From Flavobacteriales bacterium (GTDB taxonomy: Bacteria; Bacteroidota; Bacteroidia; Flavobacteriales_G; Salibacteraceae): 64,000 nucleotides of DNA. Both the position numbers and the translations under genes were made by a program. Location: positions 124,001 to 188,000 of the forward strand of contig JABMOM010000020.1 of NCBI GenBank assembly GCA_013204105.1. Reading direction: 5' to 3'. The first letter of the stretch is position 1, and the number at the start of each line of letters is the position of its first letter. The notes beneath the pieces were generated by a model. That model did no database searches, was not told where the DNA came from, and worked only from the letters and a program-made list of their open reading frames with translations. Shown here one piece after another: positions 21,277 to 57,055 of this stretch.

Positions 21277-23154
21277 GTGAATTACCTATCAGTAGACCGT
21301 CTGGCAAAGCATCTGGGAGAACGTACCTTGTTTGAGGACATAAGCTTTGGTTTGGCCAAAGGAGATAAGGTTGCGTTGATTGCGAACAACGGTACCGGAA
21401 AGACTTCGTTGCTCAACATACTCGCAGGACAAGATGTGCCTGACGAAGGGGAATACAACTTCAGAAATGGCATTCGCGTGGCTTATTTAGAGCAGCAGCC
21501 AACACTGGACGAAGATCAAACGATCGAGGCCTATATCACCTCAGCGAACTCAGAGACCTTGATGCTCATCGAGGAATACAACGATAAACTAGCCAAATCC
21601 GCTGAAGGAGACGAAGGAGCGCTGAGGGAATTGGAAGAAGTACAGCAGCGAATGGACGCGCGAAAGGCATGGGATCATGATCGTCAGTTGCGCGCCATGC
21701 TCTCGCGATTTGGCGTTACAGATCTTCAAAAGCAAATCGCCGAATTGAGTGGAGGTCAAAAGAAGCGACTGGCGCTTGCGTTAACCCTCTTGGATCAGCC
21801 AGACCTGCTCATTTTGGATGAGCCTACCAACCACCTAGACATTGAGATGGTGGAATGGCTGGAGGACTTTCTTGGTCAATCGAACCTGACCTTGCTTATG
21901 GTTACCCACGACCGGTATTTCTTGGATCGTGTGTGCAATGTGATTTTAGAAATGCACCGAGGCAAGTTGTACAAGCACAACGGCAATTACAGCTATTTTC
22001 TTCAGAAACGCGCCGAGCGTGAAGAGGTGCTGCAAACCGAGATCGATAAGGCGGGGAAGCTCATGAAACGTGAGCTTGAATGGGTCCGGCGTCAACCAAA
22101 GGCTAGGACCACCAAAAGCAAAGCGAGATTGGACGCATACGACCATATCGAAGCCAAGGCAAAAAGTGGAGTGAAAGAGCAAGATTTGATCCTAGATGTA
22201 AAGATGTCGCGCGTCGGGGGTAAGATCCTCGAGTTGAAAAAGGTATACAATAGCTATGATGATATCGCTTTGATCTCGGGGTTTGATTACACCTTCAAGC
22301 GAGGAGAGCGAATTGGCATTATTGGAAAAAACGGGGTGGGGAAGAGCACCTTTCTCAACATCATTACCCAACAGCTGCAACCAGATTCAGGTAAGGTGAA
22401 TGTGGGAGATACGATAGTCTATGGCTACTACACCCAAGGAGGACTAAAGGTCAAAGAAGATAAACGCGTCATCGAGGTACTTAAAGACATCGCCGACGTC
22501 ATTCAATTAGCGGATGGCTCGAAATTGACGGCTTCTGCATTTCTGCAATACTTTCTGTTTCCGCCCGAAATGCAGTATACACAGGTCTCCAAGCTCAGTG
22601 GGGGAGAACGTCGGAGATTGCACCTGATGACGGTGCTCATGAAGAATCCAAATTTCCTCATATTGGATGAACCAACCAACGACCTGGACCTCCTTACCTT
22701 AACACGTCTTGAGGAATTTCTCGAGAATTTCGGAGGCTGTTTGTTGATCGTGTCCCACGACCGTTATTTCCTTGACAAGCTCGTAGATCACCTATTCATA
22801 TTCGAGGGAGAAGGCATTATCCGTGATTTTTGGGGATCCTACGCTAAGTTCAGAGCAGAAAAAAAGGAAAAGGAACGACAAGCAAGCTCCTCCAAGACGA
22901 AGCAAGCCATTGCCCCACCTCCTGTCAAGAGCGCAACCAAGAAGCGATTGAGCTTCAAGGATAAATACGAGTTGGAACAAATCGAAAAGGAACTGCCTGA
23001 ATTGGAAAAGCGAAAGGCTGCTTTGGAGGAATCGCTATCGAGTGGAACCTTGGATCACGCCCTGATCGAGAGCGTTTCGGTGGAACTACATGAACTGAGC
23101 GAACGTGCCGACGCTTTGACCATGCGCTGGATCGAGTTGGACGATATGGCTTAA
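21277..23154 (+). CDS. ABC-F family ATPase, Uup-like
   Basis: This 625-residue soluble protein has two ABC domains and no membrane segment. Domain 1 has Walker A NNGTGKTS, signature LSGGQKKR and Walker B ILDEPTNHLD. The linker contains the Lys/Arg-rich P-site tether (RRQPKARTTKSKARLDAY). Domain 2 has GKNGVGKST, LSGGERRR and ILDEPTNDLD. A C-terminal coiled coil (about the last 80 residues) is as in Uup. ABC-F proteins act on the ribosome. The frame opens at 21235, but I choose GTG 21277: it gives MNYLSVDRLAK, where relatives begin, and lies 4 nt after CATCTTCG. Confidence 0.93.
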   Translation: MNYLSVDRLAKHLGERTLFEDISFGLAKGDKVALIANNGTGKTSLLNILAGQDVPDEGEYNFRNGIRVAYLEQQPTLDEDQTIEAYITSANSETLMLIEEYNDKLAKSAEGDEGALRELEEVQQRMDARKAWDHDRQLRAMLSRFGVTDLQKQIAELSGGQKKRLALALTLLDQPDLLILDEPTNHLDIEMVEWLEDFLGQSNLTLLMVTHDRYFLDRVCNVILEMHRGKLYKHNGNYSYFLQKRAEREEVLQTEIDKAGKLMKRELEWVRRQPKARTTKSKARLDAYDHIEAKAKSGVKEQDLILDVKMSRVGGKILELKKVYNSYDDIALISGFDYTFKRGERIGIIGKNGVGKSTFLNIITQQLQPDSGKVNVGDTIVYGYYTQGGLKVKEDKRVIEVLKDIADVIQLADGSKLTASAFLQYFLFPPEMQYTQVSKLSGGERRRLHLMTVLMKNPNFLILDEPTNDLDLLTLTRLEEFLENFGGCLLIVSHDRYFLDKLVDHLFIFEGEGIIRDFWGSYAKFRAEKKEKERQASSSKTKQAIAPPPVKSATKKRLSFKDKYELEQIEKELPELEKRKAALEESLSSGTLDHALIESVSVELHELSERADALTMRWIELDDMA

Positions 23155-23284
23155 GCGTCTGTGCTTTACCGTTATTTTACCAATACGGCTCAAATTAATT
23201 TAACATCCTGTTTACAAGTAAATTATATGTTGACAACTCATATGTTAAATCCTTGTTTTTCGTTGGTGTTGGTTAGCGAGTTTC

Positions 23285-23292
23285 TAACTTTG
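23285..23292 (+). promoter_or_regulatory. Promoter -7 element TAACTTTG with upstream TTG, for a candidate small RNA
   Basis: This is a perfect TAnnTTTG match. A TTG at 23263-23265 lies 19 nt upstream, at the spacing expected for the Bacteroidota -33 element. Transcription would start near 23297-23299, well before the next gene, whose own promoter is at 23420. Confidence 0.55.
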
Positions 23293-23297
23293 AGTCA

Positions 23298-23410
23298 CTT
23301 TCTGTTTCTTAACGGAATAATTTAATACGTGCCCATAAGCTTAAGAGGGGGTCGAGGCGATTGGTTCGATAGGGTTAGAATTATTCATTGCTTCGTGCCT
23401 CCTCTTTTTT
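23298..23410 (+). ncRNA. Candidate small RNA of about 112 nt with its own promoter and terminator
   Basis: The region contains no open frame. It begins just after a perfect promoter element. It ends in a hairpin whose arms AAGAGGGGGT (23343-23352) and GCCTCCTCTT (23397-23406) pair over 10 positions with two G-T pairs, followed by an unbroken T run to 23410. The 44-nt apical region holds further self-complementary stretches such as GAATTATTC. The promoter of the next gene starts 10 bp after the T run, so this looks like an independent unit and not a leader. I could not match it to SRP RNA, 6S RNA, tmRNA or RNase P RNA. A long-looped attenuator is the alternative. Confidence 0.5.
23343..23410 (+). 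terminator. Terminator-like hairpin closing the candidate small RNA
   Basis: This is a ten-pair stem (23343-23352 with 23397-23406) closing a 44-nt region, followed by T at 23407-23410, with the last two stem bases also T. Confidence 0.55.
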
Positions 23411-23419
23411 AACTTCTGC

Positions 23420-23427
23420 TACATTCG
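23420..23427 (+). promoter_or_regulatory. Promoter -7 element TACATTCG for the DUF6155 gene
   Basis: It matches TAnnTTYG; its last base is 5 nt before ATG 23433, so the message may be leaderless. It supports ATG 23433 over the in-frame TTG/ATG codons from 23388, which lie upstream of this element. Confidence 0.55.
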
Positions 23428-23432
23428 TCCGC

Positions 23433-23939
23433 ATGGGACTCCGCGACGTACGCAAAGAGCTGGAATCGCTCGAAAAGCAAGCCATCATACATCATTTACT
23501 GGAAGTTTATAAACGCTTTCCTAAGGTCAAGGAATACTTCGACTTCTTCGTAAACCCTGATGAACAGGCACTTTTGGAGGAATACAAACGACGCGTGCAC
23601 GAAGGGTTTTATCCCGCTCGTGGCAAGCGACTCAAGCTATACCGGTCAAGAAAGGCGGTCAACGACTTCAAGAAACTCGCCATCTCACCAGAAGCTGTGG
23701 GGGCGCTCCTGTTATACTTCACGCAAGTGGCGGTGATGTGCGGAAGGGAGCGACATGTGAAGACGGAGGCGTTCTATACCCGCATTGAAACTAGTTTTCG
23801 TGCTGCCTTAGAATATTTGGAAAAGAACAACTTGCTTCTTCCTTTTTCCATGGACGTGGAAGATCTCATCGGACGATGTGAGCCTTTTCCATGGAATTGT
23901 CACGTCCACATGGAAACAATCAGAAGCGATTTCTACTGA
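23433..23939 (+). CDS. DUF6155 family protein
   Basis: This 168-residue soluble helical protein has the DUF6155 pattern: a start like MGLRDVRKELESLEKQAI, then LLEVYKRFPKVKEYFDFFVNP and a basic KLYRSRKAVNDFKK segment. The family is small, widespread in Bacteroidota and of unknown function. The end has an unusual aromatic and His-rich tail (FPWNCHVHMETIRSDFY). It lies directly after a candidate small RNA and has its own promoter motif. Confidence 0.8.
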   Translation: MGLRDVRKELESLEKQAIIHHLLEVYKRFPKVKEYFDFFVNPDEQALLEEYKRRVHEGFYPARGKRLKLYRSRKAVNDFKKLAISPEAVGALLLYFTQVAVMCGRERHVKTEAFYTRIETSFRAALEYLEKNNLLLPFSMDVEDLIGRCEPFPWNCHVHMETIRSDFY

Positions 23940-23998: not shown

Positions 23999-25282
23999 AT
24001 GCGGCACATTTCTATTGTTCGACTTCCATTGCCTTTCTTGTTCATTAGCCTTCTCACTCTGAGTAGCTGCTTCGACAAAGGATGCATAGATCCAATGGCT
24101 TCCAACTATGATTCATTAGCAGATCGCGATGACGGAAATTGTAAATATGCCTTCGCTACCGATGAGACCAAAGATGCCTTCGCTGAGAATTATGCCTTGA
24201 TCGCTCACGCGATGTACCAAGATGCCTATGCTCAAAGCGAAGCAATGCGCGAGCTGATCCATTCTTTTGTTGCCAATCCGACCATTCCTGGTCTTCAAGC
24301 GTGCAAGGATGCGTGGGTGATTGCCCATATTCCGTACAGTCAAGCGGAGGTTCTTCAGTTTCCGGGCTCTCCGGTAAGGTCTTCTGGGGGTGTGGTGCTG
24401 CACGAGCGTATCAACGCATGGAATTTCACGCCAGCGCACATCGATTACGTAAAAGACAGTTTGGAGGCAGGAATCATCAATCAAGCGGCTAAGTATCCGC
24501 AAATAGATGCGGCCTTGCTGCAAGGACTAAACAATACGGTGGATGGCAAACGGATAACCCTCGGATACCACGTGATTGAATTCTTGCTTTGGGGAGAGGA
24601 CAAGGAAGCGGTGGACGAATTGAGTTCAGGTAAACGAAGCTTCAAAGACTATGATACCTCCGATACCAATGTCGTGCACGCGGCTAGGCGTGGGCAATAC
24701 CTCAGTCTGAGTGCGGATCAACTGTCCAACGATCTAGCTTCGCTGGTGAATGGATGGTCGCCGTTGGGTGGTAGTAACTACCTGAAGACCTTTCAAGCGT
24801 ATAGCGCGAAGAAGCAGACCCGTCTTGCGATCACTGGAATGGTCTTATTCGGACAGTATGAGCTCGCCCAAAACCGATTGTTGACTACGCTGACCGGGCT
24901 AAACCCTGAGCGAGAAGAATCTACCTTCAGCGACAATACACAGCGAGATGTCTTCTTTAACGTGCTAGGGTTAAACTCCCTATTCAGAGGTAGATACGGG
25001 ATGTCAGATAGTACGTATATTGAGGGGGCTTCCTTATACGATGTAATCGCCGAACAAGATTCTAGCTCTGCGAATCAATTGGATGTCCTCATGCGCAAAG
25101 TGATGAAAGCATCCAAGGAAGTGATGTCTCCTTACGATTATCAGGTGAGTTTGGAGCAAGCCGCTGGTCTAGGCCCGATCACGGACTTAACGGTATCACT
25201 TGAAGCCTTTGGTGAGCGCCTCACGGAGGTTGCGGCTGAGTTGAACATGGGCATTCAAAAGGATTTACCACTTCAGGATTAG
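23999..25282 (+). CDS. Imelysin-family (M75-like) lipoprotein
   Basis: This 427-residue protein has a lipoprotein signal (LTLSSCFDKG, lipid-modified Cys about residue 24). A short segment resembling the calcium-binding-like DPMASNYDSLADRDDGNC follows, then an imelysin domain. The key GxHxxE motif is GYHVIEFLLWGED (Gly189, His191, Glu194), and AWVIAHIPYSQAEVL is the usual first-helix motif. Imelysins are periplasmic or outer membrane proteins tied to iron acquisition, and protease activity is doubtful in many members. No iron transport genes are adjacent here. The frame opens at 23891, but ATG 23999 gives the lipoprotein signal. Confidence 0.88.
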   Translation: MRHISIVRLPLPFLFISLLTLSSCFDKGCIDPMASNYDSLADRDDGNCKYAFATDETKDAFAENYALIAHAMYQDAYAQSEAMRELIHSFVANPTIPGLQACKDAWVIAHIPYSQAEVLQFPGSPVRSSGGVVLHERINAWNFTPAHIDYVKDSLEAGIINQAAKYPQIDAALLQGLNNTVDGKRITLGYHVIEFLLWGEDKEAVDELSSGKRSFKDYDTSDTNVVHAARRGQYLSLSADQLSNDLASLVNGWSPLGGSNYLKTFQAYSAKKQTRLAITGMVLFGQYELAQNRLLTTLTGLNPEREESTFSDNTQRDVFFNVLGLNSLFRGRYGMSDSTYIEGASLYDVIAEQDSSSANQLDVLMRKVMKASKEVMSPYDYQVSLEQAAGLGPITDLTVSLEAFGERLTEVAAELNMGIQKDLPLQD

Positions 25283-56736: not shown

Positions 56737-56744
56737 TATTTTCG
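56737..56744 (+). promoter_or_regulatory. Promoter -7 element TATTTTCG for the cobalamin-riboswitch operon
   Basis: It matches TAnnTTYG and sits directly before the riboswitch, so transcription would start near 56750. Confidence 0.55.
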
Positions 56745-56751
56745 CACTGCT

Positions 56752-56932
56752 TTTGGTTCGTGGTTGGCGCCACGATGAAAAGGGAATCCGGTGTAAGTCC
56801 GGAACTGTCCCCGCAGCTGTAAACCTTATCATGCTTAGGCGTGATGATGGCCTTGACATTAAAGCCACTGATGATGAACACTCATTGGGAAGGCGTCGAG
56901 ACCGGGTAAGTCAGAAGACCTGCCAGAAGTGA
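56752..56932 (+). promoter_or_regulatory. Cobalamin (adenosylcobalamin-type) riboswitch
   Basis: Conserved core elements occur in order: AAAAGGGAATCCGGTG with AAGTCCGGAACTGTCCCCGC (56778-56815), GCAGCTGTAA, a variable arm with AAAGCCACTG, GGGAAGGCG with CGAGACCGGG (56887-56906), and the B12 box GTCAGAAGACCTGCC (56910-56924). These form the standard P3-P6 junction and closing helix. High cobalamin should lower expression of the four genes downstream. The exact off-switch (terminator or masked start) in the 130 nt before ATG 57056 is not clear to me. Confidence 0.95.
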
Positions 56933-57055
56933 ATTTTTTGCGAAAAGCTTTCGGGAATAAAAGCTGATCGGATCTTGCTTCGCTTTTGGGGCATCTTCCT
57001 TTCTCTTATTCACTGAATGTTTCTCGTGTTGTTCATCTTTAAGCGCGAAAGCAAC

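Follow-up and report, generated by a model that had tools for sequence, protein, structure and literature searches.

In the genome of an uncultured flavobacterium, the gap between an ABC-F type ATPase gene and a DUF6155 gene harbors a predicted small RNA. Coordinates are those of the window, the whole 64-kb stretch of DNA that was analysed, and the features of the locus are as follows.

21280-23154: ABC-F type ATPase gene with two ABC_tran domains, upstream of the RNA
23263..23292, forward strand: putative promoter of the RNA, consisting of TTG, a 19-nt spacer and TAACTTTG (-7 box at 23285-23292), from sequence
23297..23410, forward strand: predicted small RNA of ~114 nt, start placed from the box and end at the T run; fold, conservation and context
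23302..23320, forward strand: weakly supported 5′ hairpin of the UCUGUU-loop-AACGGA type, predicted in genome G000
23343..23406, forward strand: long terminal hairpin whose outer stem (23343-23352/23397-23406) leads inward past a bulge; minimum free energy folds of seven homologues
23363..23382, forward strand: near-invariant tip GGTTCGATAGGGTTAGAATT with the open loop GATAGGGTTA at 23368-23377; identity across seven genomes
23405-23410, forward strand: T run (T6) of a putative intrinsic terminator, from sequence
23420-23427, forward strand: second -7-like box TACATTCG, from sequence, assigned to the DUF6155 gene and not to the RNA
23433-23939: DUF6155 gene, ATG at 23433
23999-25282: imelysin (peptidase M75) gene, after DUF6155

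The sequence GCGTCTGTGC lies at 23155-23164, directly 3′ of the ABC-F stop codon. It recurs, sometimes altered, between ABC-F and the RNA in genomes G009, G003, G007 and G005 and has diverged in G011; its distance to the RNA varies among genomes and it forms a conserved 3′ element. The sole Rfam match within the window is a cobalamin riboswitch (RF00174) at 56737-56941 on the forward strand, with 113.6 bits. No long open reading frame runs across the candidate RNA: a GTG frame (23161-23325) and a TTG frame (23388-23939) merely graze its edges, so that the original prediction of some 112 nt free of an open frame is upheld. The seven homologues described below have no open reading frame in common, the frames being short and different from copy to copy.

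The TAnnTTTG promoter consensus and the position of the box at -12 to -5 were mapped in Flavobacterium psychrophilum (PMC9723704). The element reported here earlier, with a TTG 19 nt upstream, is indeed present as TAACTTTG, and the start of the RNA near 23297 is set 5 nt past this box following the flavobacterial box position (PMC9723704). TAnnTTTG is not a common accident in the window, since it occurs 16 times on both strands against 34.6 expected from shuffles. This is about half the predicted frequency across the whole stretch, as if selection removed stray sigma-A boxes. Six of the seven genomes have a promoter-like box 70 to 78 nt ahead of the tip. The boxes are exact in four genomes spanning three lineages (G000, G009 and G005 have theirs at -78 relative to the loop motif, G003 at -75) and carry one mismatch in G007 (-75) and G001 (-70); G011 has no clear TAnnTTTG box ahead of the tip. 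The T run said to end the unit follows the stem directly as T6, and a terminator hairpin with a T-rich tract 3′ of the stem is found in all seven homologues.

A second promoter motif had been proposed ahead of DUF6155. The box TACATTCG is there, one letter short of the TAnnTTTG consensus, and its spacing to DUF6155 is alike in G009, G003, G007 and G011. A start from it would fall ~1 nt before the DUF6155 ATG. Because the box stands only ~5 nt upstream of this ATG, the DUF6155 mRNA is probably leaderless or near-leaderless.

Folding the transcript-sized stretch gives -36.1 kcal/mol (z = -3.66), a value that none of 200 shuffles equals. The 10-pair stem of the original prediction is exact and includes two G-U pairs. 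The 44-nt apical region, taken to be open, is on the other hand mostly paired and leaves an open loop of just 10 nt. The inner helix ends as the small hairpin GGUUC-GAUAGGGUUA-GAAUU, with apical pair probabilities of 0.94-0.99 in the window genome. The predicted fold is not uniform among the homologues. The 5′ hairpin is kept in G009 with an altered loop and 5′ structures differ in other lineages; G001 favours a fold other than the apical stem, and the G005 transcript as a whole folds no better than its shuffles (z = -0.33).

Lack of conservation in relatives, together with read-through into DUF6155, had been named as evidence against the RNA. Of the 13 genus genomes, seven keep it, each with exactly one strong copy, and six are without a detectable copy. 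The motif GGTTCRATAGGGTTAGAA occurs exactly once in each of G000, G001, G003, G005, G007, G009 and G011; matches elsewhere with two mismatches are about as frequent as those of a reversed control pattern, and one-mismatch matches in G001 and G010 were dismissed as coding or unstructured. By blastn there is one near-complete match, G009 at 81%, and several other genus members match around the tip alone. A covariance model built on the seven copies recovers the same seven with 68-92 bits (E 1e-16 to 1e-23); these copies also trained the model, and their first detection rests on the motif and blastn. The carriers comprise four lineages with deep ABC-F divergence (~60-70% identity), and the tree gives low branch support (41/33) on whether they form a single clade. 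The relatives that bear names are metagenome genomes of uncultured Flavobacteriales.

Conservation is centred on the 20-nt tip, with a mean identity of 97% over the seven genomes, against 61% and 64% for the arms (minimum 33%). Alignment cells of the stem are paired in 92.9% of cases; shifting the partner 1-3 columns along lowers this to 41-62%. Together this suggests that the stem may change provided that pairing holds and that the tip is fixed. The search for compensatory changes proposed with the original prediction gave a divided answer: pairing is kept and three pairs show two-sided change, but 37 of 500 shuffles of the seven sequences reach the same count, so that covariation alone is suggestive rather than proof.

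The order ABC-F, RNA, DUF6155, imelysin is found in five genomes. The G005 genome yielded no DUF6155 gene, and its RNA lies between ABC-F and imelysin. In G001, where DUF6155 is not found either and ABC-F is located elsewhere, the RNA is flanked by a divergent NADH/formate-dehydrogenase type gene on one side and a convergent SulP-type gene on the other, and imelysin follows 2.3 kb further on. The gene 3′ of the RNA is thus DUF6155 in five genomes, imelysin in one and a convergent gene in one, and among the seven carriers the RNA is tied to no single flanking gene. All seven carriers have the imelysin (M75) gene within ~2.4 kb on the downstream side of the RNA, including those whose locus lacks ABC-F or DUF6155 (L263:6043-9770), whereas it is located elsewhere in relatives devoid of the RNA; a functional link between the two is possible, or merely shared ancestry.

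These arrangements bear on two readings in which the hairpin belongs to a neighboring gene. As a cis-acting leader or attenuator it would stop or pass transcription into DUF6155, which does begin ~20-30 nt past the T run in five of the seven genomes. DUF6155 has its own -7-like box 3′ of the terminator, however, it is present in all six genus members without the RNA, and the RNA is retained in G005 and G001 without it, so that this role is very improbable. The RNA could also belong to the ABC-F gene, as nothing more than its intrinsic terminator or 3′ UTR or as an sRNA derived from that 3′ UTR; six of the seven genomes have it downstream of ABC-F, and its hairpin with a T run would fit. Yet it lies ~250 nt beyond the stop codon with a putative promoter box of its own, and a plain terminator would have no need of a 20-nt tip kept invariant while the stem changes; this origin is unlikely. 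In G001 the RNA is neither leader nor 3′ UTR because the upstream gene is divergent and the downstream gene convergent, and given the arrangements in G005 and G001 none of the three roles, as leader, attenuator or 3′ UTR, suits every genome. The ligand-binding element suggested for the apex fares no better, as a riboswitch reading is not supported when no constant gene lies downstream.

The candidate also matches no Rfam family. Rfam searches at gathering score and up to E = 10 return just chance microRNA and snoRNA matches, in agreement with the original prediction that it does not resemble SRP, 6S, tmRNA or RNase P RNA. The structured Bacteroidota non-coding RNAs 6S-Flavo (RF01685), Flavo-1 (RF01705) and Bacteroidales-1 (RF01693) (PMC2864571) likewise give no match at either threshold. 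The covariance search advised at the outset, with Rfam and then with a new model from relatives, therefore leaves Rfam empty and recovers the seven genus copies. Against 149 relatives and 42 order members this model (R1) finds the seven true copies and nothing comparable elsewhere; weak matches of at most 29 bits were rejected as ordinary hairpins or terminators without the full tip. Among the matches listed from a 16-mer pattern scan of genome contigs (at least 80 loci), two genus members alone scored. Genus members devoid of the RNA have no similar loop downstream of ABC-F, nor upstream of imelysin or DUF6155. Among the papers listed for the loop string, most concern telomeric RNA and none a bacterial sRNA. 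As far as searched, among the 149 relatives and 42 order members, the RNA appears restricted to one genus.

A diverged housekeeping RNA (6S-like, SRP, tmRNA or RNase P) might be expected to occur, as here, in one copy per genome, and its size is near that of 6S-Flavo (108 nt). 6S-Flavo itself goes undetected in the relatives, though the same search is also blank in all control genomes. The lack of any such Rfam match even at E = 10, the unpaired 5′ and 3′ ends of the predicted fold, which are paired in 6S, and the absence of the RNA from six genus members and every other genus searched leave this identity even less probable than a DUF6155 leader. In attC sites the hairpin ends are conserved and not the tip. 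A DNA-level recombination or attachment element (dif, attC) could resemble the hairpin in being a single-copy inverted repeat with a fixed core, but here it is the tip that is conserved, the order of putative promoter, hairpin and T run is kept, the locus lies at no GC-skew turn, and a dif site would be expected in all genus members. Searches of plasmids, phages and viral contigs gave no match to the RNA, and such an element is the least probable of these alternatives.

The reading preferred with reasonable confidence is a freestanding, terminator-ended small-RNA gene with the loop as its working part. The proposal of an independent sRNA gene is supported by conservation in seven of 13 genomes, the gene contexts of G005 and G001, the recurring promoter-like box and the lack of an Rfam family. 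A sigma-A type promoter would start the RNA near 23297 and transcription would stop at 23410, where the hairpin and T run lie. This hairpin would act as both terminator and scaffold, its stem variable while paired, and its tip would display the fixed loop GAUAGGGUUA closed by the fixed GGUUC/GAAUU stem. Because the loop is fixed while the stem changes, it is the likely working part and would probably act in trans.

The commonest known mode is to pair with mRNAs over less than 10 nt. Such pairing may apply here, at somewhat short of even chances; the main alternative, a sequence-specific protein site, is rated lower but is a serious candidate. Complement sites across the genus genomes include no conserved, perfect 10-nt antisense target of the loop, and such a target is unlikely. 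The loop complement CTAACCCTAT is scarce, being confined in G001 to the RNA gene itself, and orthologues share its sites just in the close pair G000/G009. For the complement TAACCCTATG, ~2-3 of the 19 sites of carriers coincide with clear gene starts (for example of FabH-like and lipoprotein-like genes in G005 and G007, respectively, named by eye from sequence) against none of the 11 inspected of 12 sites in non-carriers, an excess that is not significant, with no site shared among genomes. Complement sites at gene starts were consequently dropped as targets, being neither orthologous nor significant against the control search. Hfq (PF17209) was not found in any of the 13 genus genomes by a search that was positive in five control genomes. 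Bacteroidota sRNAs can use proteins other than Hfq, as illustrated by the Bacteroides protein RbpB, which binds sRNAs (PMC11697453).

The closest parallels are Rfp18 and other independent sRNAs of F. psychrophilum (PMC9723704), which like the candidate are flavobacterial, intergenic, structured and genus-conserved; they have TAnnTTTG promoters, as predicted here, and stem-loop pairing with mRNAs has been proposed for them (PMC9723704). The likeness to Rfp18 is to its description and not to its sequence. GibS and FopS of Bacteroides thetaiotaomicron also end in a Rho-independent terminator hairpin (PMC11697453). FopS, however, is a multicopy family whose conserved seed lies in an unpaired 5′ stretch (PMC11697453), whereas the candidate has one copy and a conserved terminator-hairpin tip; an active module placed in the terminator would be unlike the 5′-seed design of FopS and GibS.

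Judged from sequence, this is probably a real, previously undescribed small-RNA family, of the familiar terminator-ended bacterial kind rather than a new one. A fuller proposal, offered tentatively, is a genus-specific regulatory RNA whose terminator hairpin carries the active module, an invariant GGUUC-[RAUAGGGUUA]-GAAUU tip read by a dedicated protein or RNA partner in a lineage without detectable Hfq. To our knowledge, flavobacterial small RNAs are nearly unmapped outside a few cultured species. With a 20-nt tip that is constant across lineages and flanking stems that have been rewritten, the RNA presents a compact, testable case. A new Rfam family can be built from it, and it may reveal an RNA-binding partner or a seed used without Hfq.
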